This document shows positions 13 to 10,091 of a stretch of 10,091 nt of DNA, piece by piece (positions within the stretch are counted from its first letter, which is position 1; each line of letters begins with the position of its first letter). Made by a program: the position numbers and the translations under genes. Under the pieces are notes generated by a model. It searched no databases. It had not been told where the DNA came from and saw only the letters and a list, made by a program, of their open reading frames with translations. Origin of the DNA: an uncultured Erysipelotrichaceae bacterium (lineage in GTDB: Bacteria; Bacillota_I; Bacilli_A; Erysipelotrichales; Erysipelotrichaceae); NCBI GenBank assembly GCA_900319505.1, contig ONOV01000191.1, forward strand, positions 1-10,091, read 5' to 3'.

Positions 13-729
13 TTACCGCACAAAAGCCCATACCACGGCCACAACCAGAGAAGGCAAGAGATTTGCCACACTGATCTTCCTGGGCCACAGCAGATTGATT
101 CCTACACAGGCAATCAGAATATTACCTACATAGGAAAGATTGGCCATGGCCGCATCTTTCATTAACGGTGCAAAGAAAGATGCCAGTATGGTGATTGAGC
201 CCTGCAATAAACCGACTGAAACAGCCGAGAAAACCGTACCGACCCCGGCCGAAGCTGCCATGGCTGTAATAATGACAAAGTCCAGCACCGCCTTGGTAAA
301 CAGAATCGTATGATTGCCATACATACCGTCTTCGATGGAACCGATCACCGCCATTGCCCCGATACATACTGTCAAAGACGCATTGACAAATGCATCCACA
401 AACCCGGAATCCTTTTCATGATGCGTCTTACACTTCAGCCACATGCCGAAGCGTTCAAACTTTCCTTCCAGATCCAGCAGTTCTCCCACAACCGTGCCGA
501 TGAGCAGAGAAAAGATCATCATCATGGTCCCCTGTGTACTCAACAGACCCTTCTCTACTTCCAGCATCTTTGCCATGACTCCGCCGATCCCGGTAAAGAT
601 CGTCATCAGTCCGCAGGTATTCAGCAGTGCCTTCTGCATCTTCTCACTTAAAAACCGCCCGCATCCCATGCCGAGCAGCCCGCCCCCGATAATCGCCAGA
701 ACATTTACTGCTGTACCAAGACCTGCCAT
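13..729 (-). CDS. DUF554 family membrane protein (YdfK/YqgA-like)
   Basis: Predicted 238-residue polytopic membrane protein of the DUF554 family, whose biochemical function is not established; a transport role is only a guess. Family-like blocks visible: N-terminal GLGTAVNV with a glycine-rich first helix (residues 3-22), GELLDLEG near 82-89, the conserved ASLTVCIGAMAVIGSIEDG block at 117-135, AVLD at 147-150, and a C-terminal NLSYVGNILI...GINLLWP region with NLLPSL at 223-228. About six to seven hydrophobic segments are seen. The frame stays open upstream to 783, but the start at 729 is chosen because DUF554 proteins begin with this block and a purine-rich GGGGGAAGGGA lies just upstream (about 733-743). 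The gene ends twelve bases from the window edge, so its terminator is not visible. It is monocistronic as far as can be seen, with its own promoter candidate. Confidence 0.88.
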   Translation of the reverse strand: MAGLGTAVNVLAIIGGGLLGMGCGRFLSEKMQKALLNTCGLMTIFTGIGGVMAKMLEVEKGLLSTQGTMMMIFSLLIGTVVGELLDLEGKFERFGMWLKCKTHHEKDSGFVDAFVNASLTVCIGAMAVIGSIEDGMYGNHTILFTKAVLDFVIITAMAASAGVGTVFSAVSVGLLQGSITILASFFAPLMKDAAMANLSYVGNILIACVGINLLWPRKISVANLLPSLVVAVVWAFVR

Positions 730-1614: not shown

Positions 1615-2604
1615 TTACTTATGGTCTTCCAGATACTTCAGGATCTCCACCGCATTGGCAGCAGCACCCTTTCTGATCTGATCGCCGCAGCACCATAAGG
1701 TGATGCCGTTTTCATTGACCAGATCTCTTCTGATCCGGCCGACATAGACTTTATCCTGGTTGGATGTCATCAGCGGGGTCGGTACTTTCTGATCCATCAG
1801 CACATCCCCGTCAAACGCATCTATGGCCCGTTTCACCTCATCCAGATCCAGCTTCTTTTCCGTTACACATGTCACGGAGATGGAGTGGGAGCGGAACACC
1901 GGTACTCTGACACAGGTACAGGTGACTTTCAGATCAGGGTCATGCATGATCTTGCGGCCTTCATTGAGCATCTTCATCTCTTCGGTGGTATAGCCGTTAT
2001 CCGTATAGGAACCGATCTCGGCAATACAGTTATAGGCAATCTGGGCCGGGAAATGCTTTACCTGCACTTCCTTTCCGGTACGGATCGCTTCCACCTGTTC
2101 ACTGAGCTCTTCAATGCCGCCCATTCCGGCGCCGGAAACAGCCTGGTACGTTGAGGCATTAATCGCTGTAATACGGGAAAGATGATAGATCGGCGCCAAG
2201 GCCATGTAGGTAATGATGGTGGAGCAGTTGGGATTGGCAATGAGGCCATGATGATGCAGGGCATCTTCGCCATTGATCTCCGGCACAACTAACGGAACGC
2301 CTTCTTCAAGACGGAAAGCACTGGAATTATCAATATAGACCGCACCGCTCTTTTCAATGGCAGGTCTGAACTTCTGACTCAGCGCATTGGAAACTGCCCC
2401 AAGCACATAATCCAGTCCGTCAAAAGAATCTTCCTTCGCTTCCTGGACCCTTAATACACCGTCTTTAAAGGGAATCTCTTTTCCTACCGAACGGGCCGAA
2501 GCCAGCAGTCTGATCTCTTCTGTTTCAATGCCCTGTTCCCCAAGACATTCCAGCATCTGTCTGCCGACCGCCCCGGTAGCACCTAAAATACCAACCTTTG
2601 TCAT
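1615..2604 (-). CDS. asd: aspartate-semialdehyde dehydrogenase
   Basis: NADP-dependent reduction of aspartyl-4-phosphate to aspartate-4-semialdehyde, the branch-point precursor of lysine, threonine and methionine; cytoplasmic. The 329-residue length is normal. Visible motifs: nucleotide-binding GILGATGAVG (5-14), SARSVGKEI (36-44), IDNSSAFR (91-98), catalytic cysteine C127 in NPNCSTI, Q154 in STYQAVSGAG, and CTCVRVPVFRSHS with R238 and the catalytic-type H240. The reading frame is open upstream to 2757 inside lysC, but the start at 2604 gives the canonical N-terminus and lies four bases after the lysC stop. The purine-rich GAGAGGAAGAG upstream sits in the end of lysC. It is the last gene of hom-lysC-asd and is followed by a terminator. 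No odd residues are seen. Confidence 0.97.
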   Translation of the reverse strand: MTKVGILGATGAVGRQMLECLGEQGIETEEIRLLASARSVGKEIPFKDGVLRVQEAKEDSFDGLDYVLGAVSNALSQKFRPAIEKSGAVYIDNSSAFRLEEGVPLVVPEINGEDALHHHGLIANPNCSTIITYMALAPIYHLSRITAINASTYQAVSGAGMGGIEELSEQVEAIRTGKEVQVKHFPAQIAYNCIAEIGSYTDNGYTTEEMKMLNEGRKIMHDPDLKVTCTCVRVPVFRSHSISVTCVTEKKLDLDEVKRAIDAFDGDVLMDQKVPTPLMTSNQDKVYVGRIRRDLVNENGITLWCCGDQIRKGAAANAVEILKYLEDHK

Positions 2605-2608
2605 AGCC

Positions 2609-3946
2609 TTATCTCTTCCTCTCTTCCCTGATGAATTTGGCATAGATTGCCTGAATCGCCTTTTCATATTCCCGGTCAGCGACACCAACCACAATGGAAA
2701 GCTCATCCGATGACTGATTGATTGTACGGATGTTGATGTGGTTGCGGCCGAACTCACTCAGCAGAGCACCGGAAATACCGGGCTGGTTGCGCATCTCACG
2801 GCCGACAATGGCAATCTGGGAGATATGTTCTTCAATCCGGATATCATCCGGCGTACATCTTTCCTTGATGAGACCAATGACTTCATACAGCTGCTTCCTG
2901 ATCTTGTCCGTCTCCACAATCACCGACATCGTATCCACCGTTGTCGGAGCGGATTCAATGGAAACACCGCAGTCCTCAAAGCACTGCAGCAGGTTTCTGA
3001 GATAGCCGACCATCGTTGAGCAGTGGGCTTTGGCAACGGTAATGACCGTGAAGTTCTTACGGCCGGCAATACCGGTAATGGCATGCGGCGGATCGTTCTT
3101 ATCCTGCTCAGAGCAGTCTTCCATGATCATCGTGCCGGGACTTTCAGGATCGTTAGTATTGCGGATATTGATCGGGATGTTCTTCTGCCTGACCGGGAAT
3201 ACCGCATCATCATGAAGCACATTGGCACCCATATAGGACATTTCACGCAGTTCCGCATAAGTAATGCGGGGAATGCCCAGGGGATGATCCACAATACGGG
3301 GATCCGCCACCATGAAGCCGGACACATCCGTCCAGTTTTCATATACATCCGCATTGACAATGTTGGCAATCACGGATCCGGTCACATCAGAACCGCCCCG
3401 GGACATGACCTTGATTGTGCCGTTAGGCATCGCCCCATAGAAACCGGGCACCAGAATCCGATCCGCCTGCCTGGCATATTCCCGCAGCTTCTGACCGGTG
3501 CGTTCCATATCGATTTCACCATCATATTTGAAGATAATGACATCTGCCGCATCCACAAACCTGGCCTGCAGATACTCAGCCAGCAGTCTTCCCGTCAGAT
3601 ACTCACCTCTGGAAACCAGATAATCCTCCGATTCCCCCTGGTCAATCAGCTCTCTGATATGATCAAACTCACGCTTCAGATCCACATGCAGGCCCAGGGC
3701 ATCCTCAATCCTCTGATACTTATCCACAATCAGCTGGAACAGAGAATCATAGGAAACCCCGTACTTCACATGGGCTTCAATCAGATACAGAAGATCCGTC
3801 ACCTTATGGTCTTCATGCGACTCCTTGCCGCAGGCACTGGTCACAATGAACTTGCGGGCCGGATCACTTTCTACGATATGTTTTACTTTGCGGAACTGAT
3901 CCGCATTGGCAACAGAAGAGCCGCCGAACTTCGCCACCTTGATCAT
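2609..3946 (-). CDS. lysC: aspartokinase, monofunctional with tandem ACT domains
   Basis: Phosphorylates aspartate to aspartyl-4-phosphate, the committed step of the aspartate pathway; cytoplasmic. 445 residues. The N-terminal amino-acid kinase domain shows KFGGSSVA (6-13), SRGEYLTG (112-119), SRGGSDVTG (182-190), TDVSG (206-210) and DPRIV (215-219). The C-terminal half carries two ACT-type regulatory regions at about 297-365 and 376-437, the latter with INIRTINQSSDELSIVV. The tandem ACT layout implies allosteric feedback by lysine or threonine; which effector cannot be read from the sequence. The start codon overlaps the hom stop as ATGA (3943-3946), with GAGG seven bases upstream inside hom, so translational coupling is likely. 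asd follows after four bases. The symbol lysC is used generically; a threonine-regulated isozyme would be named differently. Confidence 0.96.
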   Translation of the reverse strand: MIKVAKFGGSSVANADQFRKVKHIVESDPARKFIVTSACGKESHEDHKVTDLLYLIEAHVKYGVSYDSLFQLIVDKYQRIEDALGLHVDLKREFDHIRELIDQGESEDYLVSRGEYLTGRLLAEYLQARFVDAADVIIFKYDGEIDMERTGQKLREYARQADRILVPGFYGAMPNGTIKVMSRGGSDVTGSVIANIVNADVYENWTDVSGFMVADPRIVDHPLGIPRITYAELREMSYMGANVLHDDAVFPVRQKNIPINIRNTNDPESPGTMIMEDCSEQDKNDPPHAITGIAGRKNFTVITVAKAHCSTMVGYLRNLLQCFEDCGVSIESAPTTVDTMSVIVETDKIRKQLYEVIGLIKERCTPDDIRIEEHISQIAIVGREMRNQPGISGALLSEFGRNHINIRTINQSSDELSIVVGVADREYEKAIQAIYAKFIREERKR

Positions 3947-5091
3947 GCGTCAGCCTCAGCCGCAAATAACAGCGGATCATCCGTCCTTCTGACAATTTCA
4001 TCCAGTCTGCTCAACGGTATTCTTCTGGTAATGAAGGCATGTTCATTGATCGGATGATCAATGACACTGGAGAAGAGATTGGTCTTATCCGTTCTGACAT
4101 AGAAAGTACCTTCATGCAGGGCATTATTGACAGGACGTGACGTCTTTTCATTGATCTCCGGGTCCTGATTCTTGACAATATCAATCACATTCTGCACCAC
4201 CGCATGTGCCGTCGGCAGAGAACCTGCCCCCTGGCCATAGAACGCAGCCGCCCCAAGCGTCTCTGATCTGCTTTCAATAATATTGAAGTTCAGCGGTACC
4301 GCCGCAAACAGATCCTCATCCCGTACAAAAGAAGGAATGACAAAGGCACTGACCGATGTACCGAAATTCTCCGCCATGCCGATGAGCTTGACCGTGCGGC
4401 CGATCGAAGCCGCATACTGAAGATCAAAAGGCTTGATATTTCGGATGCCATAGGTGGAAATGGCATTGACATCCACCAGATCATCAAACGCCTTGACCAC
4501 AGACAGCGCCACCTTGGAACGTACATCATAGCCATCGATATCATCCGAAGGATCACGCTCCGCATAGCCGAGCTTCTGTGCTTCCTTTAACATGACATCA
4601 AAATCACTGCCCTCTTCCTTCATTTTGGAAAGAATATAGTTTGTCGTACCGTTGAAAATACCTCTGAAGCTCTGGATATCATCCACTCTTCTGGTACGGT
4701 CCAGAGAAGCCATCCAGGGAATGCCGCCGCCGCAGGCCGCTTCATAATGAATGGTTACGCCGTGCTTTCTGGCTTCCTCAAACAGATCCTCACAATACGC
4801 TGCCAGCATCTTCTTATTGGAAGTCACCGCATACTTGCCATTGGCCAATGCTCTTTTCACAAACGTATGTGCCGGTTCCAGACCGCCCATGCATTCCACA
4901 ACTATATCGATATCCGGATCATCCAGTATCTCATTGACATCCGTTGTACAGCGGGGATCATTCTTCTCCGCTTCGCTCTTGACCAGTATCTTCTTGACAC
5001 TGACCTCTTCCACTTCCCATGTCTTATTGGCATCAATAATCGCAGCTACACCGCTTCCTACAACACCATGTCCAAGCAGTCCGATCTTCAT
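3943..5091 (-). CDS. hom: homoserine dehydrogenase lacking a C-terminal ACT domain
   Basis: Reduces aspartate-4-semialdehyde to homoserine with NAD(P)H; cytoplasmic. 382 residues. Rossmann motif GHGVVGSG (7-14), VVECMGG (64-70), SNKK with catalytic-type lysine (91-94), AACGGGIP (118-125), IFNGTTNYIL (145-154), and the substrate/catalytic block GYAERDPSDDIDGYDVRSK (175-193). Many Gram-positive homologues run to about 430 residues with a C-terminal ACT domain. Here the core is followed only by about 50 residues (EGTFYVRTDK to the end), too short for one. Two adjacent ATG codons exist at 5094 and 5091; 5091 is chosen because GGAGGG (5098-5103) is then six bases away. It is first in the hom-lysC-asd operon and overlaps lysC by four bases. 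Confidence 0.95.
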   Translation of the reverse strand: MKIGLLGHGVVGSGVAAIIDANKTWEVEEVSVKKILVKSEAEKNDPRCTTDVNEILDDPDIDIVVECMGGLEPAHTFVKRALANGKYAVTSNKKMLAAYCEDLFEEARKHGVTIHYEAACGGGIPWMASLDRTRRVDDIQSFRGIFNGTTNYILSKMKEEGSDFDVMLKEAQKLGYAERDPSDDIDGYDVRSKVALSVVKAFDDLVDVNAISTYGIRNIKPFDLQYAASIGRTVKLIGMAENFGTSVSAFVIPSFVRDEDLFAAVPLNFNIIESRSETLGAAAFYGQGAGSLPTAHAVVQNVIDIVKNQDPEINEKTSRPVNNALHEGTFYVRTDKTNLFSSVIDHPINEHAFITRRIPLSRLDEIVRRTDDPLLFAAEADA

Positions 5092-5126
5092 CATACGCCC
5101 TCCGTTTGTTCCTGTTCTGGATACAC

Positions 5127-5155
5127 TTGTTTTTAGCACGTGAACATAGTATCAT
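5127..5155 (+). promoter_or_regulatory. candidate promoter of thrC-thrB-ACT operon
   Basis: TTGTTT (5127-5132) is followed after 17 bases by TATCAT (5150-5155), five of six matches in the -10. Predicted start near 5162 gives a leader of about 25 bases carrying the Shine-Dalgarno AAGGAG (5173-5178). The overlapping TAGTAT (5147-5152) is an alternative -10. The element overlaps the opposing hom promoter. Confidence 0.5.
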
Positions 5156-5162
5156 TGTCCAC
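5140..5162. promoter_or_regulatory. imperfect dyad over the divergent hom/thrC promoters, candidate operator
   Basis: GTGAACA (5140-5146) and TGTCCAC (5156-5162) are inverted repeats matching at six of seven positions across a nine-base spacer. The dyad centre (5151) falls on the shared -10 region of both promoters. A dimeric repressor here could shut both operons at once. No regulator family can be assigned from the motif. Confidence 0.35.
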
Positions 5163-5174
5163 AGTGAAAGACAA
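5146..5174 (-). promoter_or_regulatory. candidate promoter of hom-lysC-asd
   Basis: On the minus strand TTGTCT (5169-5174) is followed after exactly 17 bases by TACTAT (5146-5151). The -10 is preceded by TGA, an extended -10 signature. Predicted start near 5139 gives a leader of about 48 bases with GGAGGG. There is no room for a T-box or lysine riboswitch in this leader. Confidence 0.6.
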
Positions 5175-5186
5175 GGAGATAAATCT

Positions 5187-6680
5187 ATGCAGTACTATAT
5201 CAGTTCACGCAATAAAAACAATGCCGTAACCGGGCATGAAGCGATAATCAAAGGTCTCGCAGACGACGGCGGCCTTTATACCCCTCTGCATTTATCTTTT
5301 CATATCAACGCAGCTGATCTGCTGCACCTTTCCTATCAGGAAACCGCCCTGCTCATTCTCAAAGGCTTCTTCCCGGACTTCTCAGAAGAAGATCTGAAAG
5401 AATGTGTCTATGGCGCCTATAATGAACGGTTTGACAATCCTGCCATCGTCCCATTAACCCGCATCTCTGATGCCCATCTGATGGAGCTCTACCATGGCCC
5501 GACAAGCGCCTTCAAGGATCTGGCCCTCACCATCCTGCCCCGGCTCATGTCAAAGTCCTATGCCATGGAAAACAGAAATGACACCATTGCCATCCTGACC
5601 GCAACCAGCGGCGACACCGGCAAAGCAGCCTTAAGCGGCTTTGCGGATGTACCGCACACCGCGGTCACGGTATTCTACCCGCATGTCGGCGTCTCTCCCA
5701 TCCAGAAAAAACAGATGGAAACAGCCGAAGGCAGCAATGTCTGTGTCATTGCCGTCAACGGCAACTTCGATGACTGCCAGCGCATGGTCAAGCAGGCCGT
5801 CACTTCCAAAGAAGTACTGGATGCCTGTGACGGTGTGGTTATCTCCTCTGCCAATTCTATTAATATCGGCCGTCTTGTCCCCCAGATCGTCTACTACTGC
5901 ACAAGCTATGCAAAACTGGTCAATGACGGCGTCATTGCCTGCGGCAACCCCATCAACTTCGTCGTGCCTACCGGCAACTTCGGTGATATATTAGCCGGCT
6001 GGCTGGCTAAAAAAGCAGGCCTGCCGATCTATAAACTCATCTGTGCTTCCAACACAAACAACGTATTGACCGACTTCCTGCGTACCGGCACCTATTCCAT
6101 TCACCGTGACTTCCATACCACCATGTCGCCTTCCATGGACATCCTGATCTCCTCCAACCTGGAACGCCTATTGTTCCTGGCTTCTGATTATGATGACATG
6201 AAGGTCAGAACATGGATGCAGGATCTGCAGACAGAAGGCTCCTATACCATTGATGATGATCTTCTGCATACCATCCAGAGCGACTTTGCCGGTGTCTGGA
6301 CCGATGAAGACACCTGTTCATCTACCATTCATGATCTTTATGAAAAGGAAAAGGTCCTCATCGACCCCCATACTTCCATTGCCCTTTCCGGTCTGCGCCA
6401 GTACCGTAAAGAAACCGGCGACCCTACTCCGGCGGCAGTCTTATCCACTGCTTCTCCCTATAAGTTCTGCCGTTCCGTCTACAGAAGCCTGACGGATATT
6501 GATGATCCGGATGATTTTGATGCCATGGATAAGCTCAATGCCCTGACGGGTGTCAAAGTACCGAAGAACCTGGCAGATCTCAAAGATAAACCGGTACGCT
6601 TCCATGAAACCATCGAAGTCAAAGACGGGCTTTCCCGCATCGCTGCACGCATCGAGGAAATCTCCCATGATAACCATTAA
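5187..6680 (+). CDS. thrC: threonine synthase
   Basis: PLP enzyme converting O-phosphohomoserine to threonine, the final pathway step; cytoplasmic. 497 residues, in the range of the longer class of threonine synthase with its own N-terminal domain. Residues 2-80 form the N-terminal domain (YYISSRN, ADDGGLYTP). The PLP lysine is K110 in GPTSAFKD (104-111). Phosphate and cofactor loops are ATSGDTGKAA (139-148), SANSINIGRL (221-230) and PTGNFGDILAG (261-271). The frame is open upstream to 5106, but the start at 5187 gives the canonical N-terminus and has AAGGAG eight bases upstream. It is the first gene of the plus-strand operon; thrB starts within its last codons. The divergent hom operon supplies the precursors. 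No missing residue was noticed. Confidence 0.97.
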   Translation: MQYYISSRNKNNAVTGHEAIIKGLADDGGLYTPLHLSFHINAADLLHLSYQETALLILKGFFPDFSEEDLKECVYGAYNERFDNPAIVPLTRISDAHLMELYHGPTSAFKDLALTILPRLMSKSYAMENRNDTIAILTATSGDTGKAALSGFADVPHTAVTVFYPHVGVSPIQKKQMETAEGSNVCVIAVNGNFDDCQRMVKQAVTSKEVLDACDGVVISSANSINIGRLVPQIVYYCTSYAKLVNDGVIACGNPINFVVPTGNFGDILAGWLAKKAGLPIYKLICASNTNNVLTDFLRTGTYSIHRDFHTTMSPSMDILISSNLERLLFLASDYDDMKVRTWMQDLQTEGSYTIDDDLLHTIQSDFAGVWTDEDTCSSTIHDLYEKEKVLIDPHTSIALSGLRQYRKETGDPTPAAVLSTASPYKFCRSVYRSLTDIDDPDDFDAMDKLNALTGVKVPKNLADLKDKPVRFHETIEVKDGLSRIAARIEEISHDNH

Positions 6681-7533
6681 AGTACCAGCCACATCCGCCA
6701 ACCTCGGGCCCGGCTTTGACTGTCTCGGCCTTGCCCTTTCCCCAAGCGACACCTTCCTCATCGAACCTTCCGACAAAGACATTCTCGACAATGTCGAAGA
6801 ACGCTTCAATAACCGTGACAACCTCTTCCTGCAGGCCTATCGCAGAGGCTGTGAAGCCCTGCATATACAGGACCATATCCATGCCGTATTCCAGTGCGGC
6901 ATACCTGTCTCAAGAGGTCTGGGCTCTTCCGCCGCGCTGATTGCCGCAGGCCTGGCCGCTGCCAGTGTCCTGCATGATTCAGCCTTAAGCAGAGATGACA
7001 TCTTTGAACTGGCTTCAGAAATGGAAGGGCATCCCGACAATGCCGCCCCGGCCGTCTATGGCGGCCTCAATGCCTGTATGAAAGAAAACGGCAGGTACCA
7101 TCGTGTTTCCCTGCCGCTGTCTGATGTATTCCATTATACCGTCTTCATTCCGGATCATGAGGTTTCAACTGCTGAAGCGCGTTCCATCTTACCCGATGAA
7201 TATCCCCGCGCAGCCGCGTCAGGCAACACCGCCCATGCCATAATACTGGTCCACGCCCTGGAAACAGGCAATATTCATCTCTTACATGAAGCCGCCCATG
7301 ACATCATTCATGAGCCCTACCGCTCACGGCTCATTCCCCGCTTTGATCAGGCCAGAGACTGTGCCTTATCCCATAACAGCGGCGCCTTTCTGATCTCAGG
7401 CTCCGGTTCAACCTGCCTTTTAATCAGCGATACGGATCTCTATCCTGCTTCCCGGAAAGAAATCCTTGCCTATACGGATCCATCCTGGGATGTTTTCTCC
7501 TGTACAATCAGCCAGGGGCTTGAAATCCTATGA
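6667..7533 (+). CDS. thrB: homoserine kinase (GHMP family)
   Basis: ATP-dependent phosphorylation of homoserine to O-phosphohomoserine, the substrate of threonine synthase; cytoplasmic. 288 residues, close to the usual family length. GHMP kinase motifs: PATSANLGPGFDCLGLAL (7-24), the ATP-binding loop GIPVSRGLGSSAA (78-90), EGHPDNAAPAVYGGL (120-134) and the C-terminal SGSGSTC (244-250). The frame is open upstream to 6550, but the start at 6667 gives the family N-terminus MITIKVPATSANLG and has GAGGA (6654-6658) eight bases upstream. That start is inside thrC, giving a 14-base overlap and probable translational coupling. The stop overlaps the next gene as ATGA (7530-7533). ThrB and ThrC catalyse successive steps. 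Confidence 0.97.
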   Translation: MITIKVPATSANLGPGFDCLGLALSPSDTFLIEPSDKDILDNVEERFNNRDNLFLQAYRRGCEALHIQDHIHAVFQCGIPVSRGLGSSAALIAAGLAAASVLHDSALSRDDIFELASEMEGHPDNAAPAVYGGLNACMKENGRYHRVSLPLSDVFHYTVFIPDHEVSTAEARSILPDEYPRAAASGNTAHAIILVHALETGNIHLLHEAAHDIIHEPYRSRLIPRFDQARDCALSHNSGAFLISGSGSTCLLISDTDLYPASRKEILAYTDPSWDVFSCTISQGLEIL

Positions 7534-7967
7534 GCAGCTTCCTGATTGTTTCCAAAGAAATTCTGCCCGACTACTACGATAAAGTCATCGAGGCAAGAAA
7601 ACTGCTGGAAAGCCGCCAGTGCAAAACCGTCACGGAAGCAGTTGAACGCTGCGGCATCTCCCGCACTACCTTCTATAAATACAAAGACTATGTCTTTGCC
7701 TTCAATGAAAGTCCCAAAAGCACCCGCAAGGCCATCCTTTCCGTCCTGCTCAAAGACGAAAGCGGCGCCTTATCCTCCGTGCTCAACAGCATATCCGACC
7801 ATGGCGTATCCATCCTGACAATCTCTCAGGCGGTACCCGTCGCCGGCAATGCCAATGTCCTTCTGTCATTAGATATTTCCGGTATCGGTGAAGGCCTTGA
7901 CAGCATGATCACGGACCTACGCCATCTAAAAGCCGTCAGACACGTTCATCTGGACGCCCTCGAATGA
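7530..7967 (+). CDS. HTH-ACT domain protein, PheB/UPF0735-like
   Basis: Small cytoplasmic protein of 145 residues. Residues about 32-51 (KTVTEAVERCGISRTTFYKY) have helix-turn-helix character, and residues 68-143 form an ACT domain (AILSVLLKDESGALSSVLN, HGVSILTISQ). The size and layout fit the UPF0735/PheB family of Bacillota; the family's molecular role is not well defined. It overlaps thrB as ATGA and is last in the thrC-thrB operon. AGGGG lies about eleven bases upstream of the start. ACT domains usually bind amino acids, so a sensor or regulator of threonine synthesis is a natural inference, either as a DNA-binding protein or as a detached regulatory partner of the ACT-less homoserine dehydrogenase. 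Its 3' end overlaps the convergent transporter gene by 22 bases and contributes to the terminator stem. Confidence 0.88.
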   Translation: MSSFLIVSKEILPDYYDKVIEARKLLESRQCKTVTEAVERCGISRTTFYKYKDYVFAFNESPKSTRKAILSVLLKDESGALSSVLNSISDHGVSILTISQAVPVAGNANVLLSLDISGIGEGLDSMITDLRHLKAVRHVHLDALE

Positions 7968-8924: not shown

Positions 8925-9287
8925 ATGAACGAAAGTACTGCTTATCTGATTATCCTGATCACGGCTTTATTGTGTCTGTTGATCGGACTGATCGAATACC
9001 GCTCCCACCGGACCGCACCCTATGGCTTTCCGATGCCGGATGCCGGATTCAGAGTCAAAGATGTATCAGGCTGGAACAGACATGTCGCCCGCCTCTGGCT
9101 TTATGCCGGATTGGGCCTGATGCTGGATCTGCTGCTTTATAAACTGACCCATCTGCCCTTATTGACCGCCATCATTGTCATTCTGATATTCGTACTGGAT
9201 ATCATTCTGTATCTGAAGAAATATGTACCGGCATATCTTTATGTGCCGGATGATGAAGAACTATGGAAGGATGTGAAAAAGAAATGA
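8925..9287 (+). CDS. small three-helix membrane protein of unknown function
   Basis: Predicted 120-residue membrane protein that I do not recognise. Hydrophobic segments lie at about 6-23 (YLIILITALLCLLIGLI), 57-73 (LWLYAGLGLMLDLLLY) and 79-97 (LLTAIIVILIFVLDIILYL). Between the first two is a polar stretch with GFRVKDVSGWNRHVARLW (41-58), vaguely like the W-containing loop of SdpI-type small membrane proteins, but the resemblance is too weak for assignment. The C-terminus is charged (DDEELWKDVKKK). The start at 8925 is the only one that keeps the first helix whole without a long unlikely extension. It lacks a Shine-Dalgarno sequence and sits seven bases after a perfect -10, suggesting a leaderless message. 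The stop overlaps the next gene's start as ATGA, so the two are probably co-expressed. Confidence 0.75.
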   Translation: MNESTAYLIILITALLCLLIGLIEYRSHRTAPYGFPMPDAGFRVKDVSGWNRHVARLWLYAGLGLMLDLLLYKLTHLPLLTAIIVILIFVLDIILYLKKYVPAYLYVPDDEELWKDVKKK

Positions 9288-10051
9288 ATATTGCTGTGAT
9301 TACCGGTGCTTCCGCAGGACTTGGCATGAAGTTCTTTGAACATTTGAAAAACAATCCCGAATACGATGCCTTCTGGCTCATCGCCAGAAGAAAAGAACGT
9401 CTGGAAGCCCTGGCAGAAGAAACCAGCAAACCCGTCAAAGTACTTTCCCTGGATCTGACCAAGTCAGAATCCATTGATACCCTCGCCAGTGAACTGCAGA
9501 AAGAAAAACCAGTCATCAGACTGCTCATCAACTCAGCAGGCCTTGGCCGGATCGGACGCATCGATGAACAGACCCGGAAAGAAAGTGAAACCATGGTCGA
9601 CCTCAACTGCCGTGCCATCGTCTCTGTCAGCAATGTCTGCCTTCCCTATATGACAAAAGGTTCAGGTATCCTCAATATCTCCTCTATTGCCGGCTTTCAG
9701 CCCCTGCCCCACTTCGGCATCTATGCCGCATCCAAAGCCTTTGTCGAATCCTATTCCAAAACCCTGCACCATGAACTGCTCCTGAAGCACATCCATGTCA
9801 CCTGTGTCTGTCCCTACTGGATCAAAGACACCGAATTCATTGCCGGTGCCCAGCATGAACACAACAAAGGCTATAAACATATCATCCTGCCATCCCACTC
9901 CAATACCGTCGTATCCCTGTCCATGGCAGCTCTGAAAGTAAATGCCTGGGTATGTACCCCAGGCATCATCACCACCGCCCAGCGCATCTGTGCCTGGATA
10001 GTCCCTGACTGCATTGTTACGCCATTCATGGAACTGATCAGCAGAATCTGA
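9284..10051 (+). CDS. short-chain dehydrogenase/reductase (SDR)
   Basis: NAD(P)-dependent oxidoreductase of the classical SDR family, 255 residues, cytoplasmic; substrate unknown. Cofactor motif TGASAGLG (7-14), then DL (57-58), NSAG (83-86), structural N108 in DLNCR, the catalytic serine in NISS (131-134), Y147 and K151 in YAASK. The tetrad is complete. The usual CPG after the sixth strand reads CPYWIKDTEF (176-185), a mild departure. The C-terminal region from about 215 is hydrophobic and may contact the membrane or its partner. The frame opens earlier at 9263, but 9284 gives the canonical N-terminus and overlaps the preceding stop as ATGA; AAGGA lies twelve bases upstream. The stop codon is inside a strong inverted repeat, and a CRISPR-like repeat begins ten bases later. 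Confidence 0.92.
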   Translation: MNIAVITGASAGLGMKFFEHLKNNPEYDAFWLIARRKERLEALAEETSKPVKVLSLDLTKSESIDTLASELQKEKPVIRLLINSAGLGRIGRIDEQTRKESETMVDLNCRAIVSVSNVCLPYMTKGSGILNISSIAGFQPLPHFGIYAASKAFVESYSKTLHHELLLKHIHVTCVCPYWIKDTEFIAGAQHEHNKGYKHIILPSHSNTVVSLSMAALKVNAWVCTPGIITTAQRICAWIVPDCIVTPFMELISRI

Positions 10052-10061
10052 TCAGTTCTTT
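10031..10061 (+). terminator. inverted repeat at the SDR 3' end, probable weak terminator
   Basis: GAACTGATCAG (10031-10041) and CTGATCAGTTC (10048-10058) pair perfectly over eleven bases with a six-base loop. The stop codon (10049-10051) lies within the right arm. Only TTT follows on the plus strand before the CRISPR-like repeat, so the U-tract is poor. On the minus strand no T-run follows, so it is unlikely to end transcription arriving from the array side by the intrinsic mechanism. Confidence 0.5.
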
Positions 10062-10090
10062 CGGTTCACCCCTACGCATGTAGGGAATAC
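10062..10090 (-). CRISPR. single type I-E-like CRISPR repeat, probable leader-distal end of an array
   Basis: Read on the minus strand this 29-base element begins GTATTCCC and ends GTGAACCG. The stem CCCTAC/GTAGGG (six pairs) encloses a four-base ATGC loop. Length, stem position, the TTCCC start and the GAACCG end all match type I-E repeats, where the last eight bases become the crRNA 5' handle. Only one copy is in the window, with a single base after it, so the array itself is not seen. The orientation places the crRNA transcript on the minus strand. The ten bases between the SDR stop and this repeat leave no room for a leader, so the leader should be on the far right and this repeat would be the oldest, terminal one. 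A lone repeat-like relic is the alternative. Confidence 0.75.
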
Positions 10091-10091
10091 A

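Follow-up and report, generated by a model that had tools for sequence, protein, structure and literature searches.

A type I-E CRISPR repeat at a contig end in an uncultured Erysipelotrichaceae bacterium, probably the outer end of a broken array

The window analysed here (10,091 nucleotides) is the whole of contig C223 (1-10091). The assembly to which it belongs totals 1,564,454 bases over 239 contigs and is rated 92.05% complete with 1.2% contamination. Visible in the window are genes of the threonine pathway, a transporter-like gene and one for an SDR-family oxidoreductase. The threonine-pathway genes (1615-7967) form two divergent groups: the minus-strand group holds asd, aspartate kinase and homoserine dehydrogenase, the plus-strand group threonine synthase, homoserine kinase and an ACT-domain protein. 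The SDR stop codon (10049-10051) lies 10 bases from a 29-base minus-strand element, which reads GTATTCCCTACATGCGTAGGGGTGAACCG from 10090 to 10062; on its other side only base 10091 separates it from the contig end. The element is present at the window edge as the initial annotation had described it. An inverted repeat that spans the SDR gene end is terminator-like with a poor T run, and a consensus scan reported no terminator there. The coordinates of the features are given in Table 1.

Table 1. Features at the right-hand end of the window.
Feature	Coordinates	Strand	Basis and remarks
SDR-family oxidoreductase gene	9287..10051	plus	Borders the repeat; outside the CRISPR system; mechanical ORF start 9263
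Inverted repeat, 12 pairs, loop of 6	10030..10059	plus	Over the SDR gene end; outside the array; fold -17.0 kcal/mol, z -4.86
Type I-E CRISPR repeat, as judged from sequence	10062..10090	minus	Sequence, models R1 and R2; taken as leader-distal terminal repeat, with the array beyond the contig end
Repeat hairpin CCCTAC / loop ATGC / GTAGGG, six pairs	10070..10085	minus	Fold; paired changes across six repeats
End of contig C223, assembly break	10091..10091		One base beyond the repeat; window = G000:C223:1-10091

The element has the layout of a type I-E repeat, consisting of about 29 bases with a short 5′ part, a hairpin of about six pairs, a four-base loop and an eight-base 3′ handle (GUGAACCG). 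The six-pair CCCTAC/GTAGGG stem with the loop ATGC was present as initially claimed, and outside the stem GTATT and GTGAACCG likewise match type I-E repeats. The repeat folded at -9.7 kcal/mol (z -1.99), with an extra U-G pair predicted at the base of the six-pair stem. Equally good folds were obtained for 8 of 200 shuffles, and the predicted fold by itself would be weak evidence for a repeat element. None of 200 shuffled versions of the window contained the 29-mer within 3 mismatches. An Rfam scan of the window reported no family at the gathering score.

Related systems were located by Cas6e searches. Cas6e was found in 3 of 70 genomes of the genus (own genome included in the sample), all three with arrays beside type I-E cas genes, and in 3 of 296 genomes sampled from the class (own genome included), namely G264, G361 and G224. 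The array of G052 counted 33 repeats, the last of them degenerate, with a period of 61-62; that of G034 had 49 repeats (period 61-62) and that of G039 33 repeats (period about 60-65). The neighbours of these arrays according to NCBIfam were the I-E genes Cas3 through Cas2e in G039, Cse1 through Cas2e within the scanned frames in G034, and Cas6e, Cas1e and Cas2e at the contig start in G052. The arrays of G264 and G361 adjoin Cas3, Cas8e, Cas11e, Cas7e, Cas5e, Cas6e, Cas1e and Cas2e (PADLOC). The cas operon of G361 may not be fully intact, since none of the Cas3-HD models matched its Cas3 frame at the threshold applied. G224 had cas6e but no array on the contig, which runs out shortly after the cas genes. 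Cas2e was fused to a DnaQ-like DEDDh exonuclease domain in G034 (L065:10063-10974, minus strand), G361 (L073:8007-8921, plus strand) and G264 (L071:9498-10388, plus strand) and was stand-alone in G052 and G039.

The pattern TTCCCTACNNNNGTAGGGNTGAWCC, comprising stem plus handle, was scanned over genome_contigs and matched nine stretches in six records. A further copy lay 61-63 bases off in eight of the nine stretches (five of the six records), these ranging from copy pairs to long arrays; the paired copies in L055 and L060 had 4-5 mismatches of 25. The ninth stretch was solitary. This I-E-like repeat (L062:148-176, minus strand; JAUVFC010000002.1, a Desulfobacterales MAG) had no further copy in the 400 bases upstream or in the 147 bases to the contig end. 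A terminase small subunit gene (197-664, minus strand; phrog_51, E 8.6e-32) ends 20 bases before it and a 37-residue ORF follows after 11 bases, which makes the repeat a candidate Racr, a prophage-borne mimic directed against type I-E.

The exact 29-mer was found in neither genome_contigs nor viral_contigs, and the degenerate stem pattern was not found in viral_contigs; these collections may omit records of the own or near genomes. Across 100 genomes (own included) the 29-mer within 3 mismatches occurred in the own genome only (1/100). A looser pattern within 2 mismatches matched 5 of 70 genus genomes: the own genome with 0 mismatches, the G052 array at 32 places, and G020, G007 and G015 at one place each with 2 mismatches. 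The last three were taken as chance; a backwards control pattern matched once each in two genomes. BLAST of the edge gave no match against phages and a single match against plasmids (Azospirillum argentinense p7, E 0.3), which sits in a period-61 array by I-E cas genes. The array and cas genes of this plasmid (L074, 93326-105355) are about 3 kb from Qat anti-phage genes.

The nearest repeat in the genus, that of G052 (GTATGCCCCACATGCGTGGGGATGAACCG; L064), is identical to the window repeat at 25 of 29 positions, including the loop ATGC and the end TGAACCG. Of the four differences, two make up one compensated change at stem pair 9-18 (C-G in G052, T-A in the window), as hairpin conservation predicts; the others are at positions 5 and 22. 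The G052 array adjoins cas6e-cas1e-cas2e, and its contig begins just before cas6e. G361, from the same family (L073), has a six-pair stem identical to that of the window, in an array with 37 exact copies of a 16-base core at period 61 and cas genes running from Cas3 to the Cas2-DEDDh fusion. Its repeat is identical to the window repeat at 22 of 29 positions, with loop ACAC and end GTGAATCC. The stem is again as in the window in Candidimonas nitroreducens (L057; 25/29 identical, loop GTGC) and Ligilactobacillus equi (L059; 24/29 identical, loop GTAT), both with a period of mostly 61 and both pattern-selected for the stem. The T/A pairs had initially been read as making this stem a distinctive variant. 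That description is not supported: the stem is not distinctive, because CCCTAC/GTAGGG also occurs in arrays of Fluviispira, Candidimonas and Ligilactobacillus, which were retrieved by asking for this stem, and in that of the same-family G361, which was retrieved through cas6e.

Two covariance models were built without the window element. R1 was made from nine repeats from other loci, aligned without gaps with a six-pair stem, and was run with filters off on the window plus 13 further loci. It gave the window element 42.7 bits (E 7.9e-12 for 63,053 bases; E-values of both models are rough according to the tool's own warning) and the L062 copy 40.8 bits. Opposite-strand readings of the window and L062 palindromes reached 15.6 and 15.5 bits, and the remainder stayed at or below 12.4 bits; in a search of the complete own genome the runner-up reached 17.2 bits. 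The training set of R1 was biased, the Fluviispira, Candidimonas and L. equi repeats having come from a pattern derived from the window element and the Azospirillum repeat from BLAST similarity to it. Since four of the nine repeats had thus been found through the window element, R2 was built from the other five, which belong to relatives and were located by cas6e searches alone. Searched over the window and 13 loci, R2 gave 38.9 bits (E 1.9e-10 for 63,053 bases) for the window element, 35.3 bits for the L062 copy and at most 13.6 bits for all else. R1 and the array matches agree with this score, and the initial assignment of the repeat was borne out: on sequence grounds the window element is a type I-E repeat, a result that holds under R2.

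Conservation of the stem was assessed on six repeats, that of the window and the five found via cas6e. All 36 stem cells paired, the shuffle mean being 90.4%. Five cells had changed on both sides, a number reached by none of 500 shuffles, and both-side changes affected three of the six pairs, as reached by 31 of 500 shuffles. The stem was kept through paired changes among these relatives. With ten repeats, 60 of 60 cells were paired and nine had changed on both sides, three of the rows being pattern-found with the stem demanded.

The SDR locus was compared with its homologues. In G034 the order transporter-like gene, small ORF, SDR gene is kept and no array follows the SDR gene. In the 400 bases 3′ of 11 SDR homologues (L067 of G034 and L027-L036; shorter where contigs end, with 55 bases in L031 and 156 in L036), every stretch differed from the three repeats compared at 12 or more of 29 positions. 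When the SDR loci (L026-L036 and L067) were scanned with the models, no R1 score exceeded 10.0 bits and no R2 hit had an E of 1 or less.

The own assembly was searched for the remainder of an array. No second copy of the 29-mer within 3 mismatches was found in the whole assembly, the 3′ 18 bases of the repeat within 2 mismatches had no other place in the genome, and over 300 offsets on the SDR-gene side the closest 29 bases had 15 mismatches. An array with copies every 60-62 bases would lie out of view, because the contig stops one base beyond the only copy. The four cas genes sought (Cas1, Cas6e, Cas8e and Cas7e) were not found in the 92%-complete assembly, the control genomes being positive in 9/14, 2/14, 2/14 and 2/14 cases, respectively. 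The initial annotation, which took the element for the terminal repeat of an array, had named a lack of recurrence together with a lack of cas genes as evidence to the contrary. Both are lacking in the assembly for the four cas genes tested, but an incomplete assembly that breaks off at the element does not refute the array. Operon and array may belong to a stretch of the genome absent from the assembly or may have escaped binning; alternatively, the array may be an orphan without cas genes.

The identity of the repeat, its orientation and the contig end are direct observations. In type I-E arrays a spacer comes after each repeat's 3′ end. Here the handle at the 3′ end points towards the SDR gene, which places any array beyond the contig end and would make the repeat leader-distal. 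We take the element to be a true type I-E repeat, most likely (probability about 0.88) the leader-distal terminal repeat of a minus-strand array extending rightward of the contig. The orientation and the contig break favour this part of the initial proposal, and the absence of an array and of the four sought cas genes from the assembly speaks against it. That absence and the single copy would equally suit a solitary I-E repeat with no array beyond, either the relic of a lost array or a chromosomal orphan, and L062 provides an example of a solitary I-E-like repeat. What chiefly favours an array over a solitary copy is that a single 29-mer placed at random would have a chance of about 6e-4 (uniform placement) of ending up no more than one base from a contig end, whereas arrays are able to break assemblies. 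Moreover, the pattern stretches elsewhere lie in arrays or copy pairs with the one exception named above, and we consider a solitary repeat unlikely.

A statement in PMC6617893 is that array repeats can fragment short-read assemblies, and a passage of PMC8549365 places the CRISPR locus of one symbiont consistently at contig ends. The contig of the family relative G264 ends 4 bases beyond a repeat, inside an array adjoining I-E cas genes. Among the arrays fetched from five relatives, those of G034, G052, G039 and G361 were assembled to the far end and only that of G264 was cut. An assembly break at an array is possible rather than usual, and the contrast between break and chance stands even at one assembly break per five arrays. 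Further points against the array are that the outermost repeats of the G052 and G361 arrays are degenerate at the 3′ end, whereas that of the window repeat is intact, and that type I-E is rare in the genus, as the cas6e count shows. With one copy visible, the window repeat may be the array consensus or a drifted end copy.

Repeat mimics on mobile elements (solitary repeat units or Racr) that divert I-E Cas proteins have been described, and within the account in PMC10651486 two I-E candidates inhibited an I-E system; L062, adjoining its terminase gene, resembles one. Such units stand singly amid viral or mobile-element genes, often behind a promoter and apart from cas genes. For the window element such a mimic is highly improbable. 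Its visible neighbours are metabolic, transporter-like and SDR genes rather than phage genes, and no promoter-like site was found within 9900-10091. These points concern the visible side; a minus-strand transcript would come from beyond the edge. It is also quite improbable that the species has no I-E cas genes and keeps this single intact repeat on its chromosome, be it as a relic under selection or as a mimic directed at Cas systems that enter the cell. A palindrome 10 bases after the stop codon might suggest a transcription terminator of the SDR gene or some other chance hairpin, but this is extremely unlikely: the SDR gene has its own hairpin, the parts outside the stem match I-E repeats as well, and the element scores as it does against R1 and R2. 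The terminator was rejected, there being no T run on either side.

Returning to the outer end of a broken array, we infer an array with leader and spacers, a cas operon, the reason for the break and any activity, and the mechanism would be the standard I-E one. In type I-E systems Cas6e cuts at the hairpin base, leaving an 8-base 5′ handle on the crRNA, and Cascade and Cas3 use the spacers. By analogy, the array would be transcribed from a leader somewhere rightward, towards the SDR gene, which is convergent with this presumed transcription. Cleavage by Cas6e at the hairpin base would leave the handle GUGAACCG at the 5′ end of each crRNA, and Cascade with Cas3 would employ the spacers. The contig presumably broke because the repeats could not be bridged by short reads.

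The window element is an ordinary, unremarkable repeat viewed through an incomplete genome. It marks a likely type I-E array in a species whose assembly shows none, which adds little beyond annotation; where assemblies are fragmented, arrays at contig ends can be overlooked and their genomes counted as CRISPR-free.
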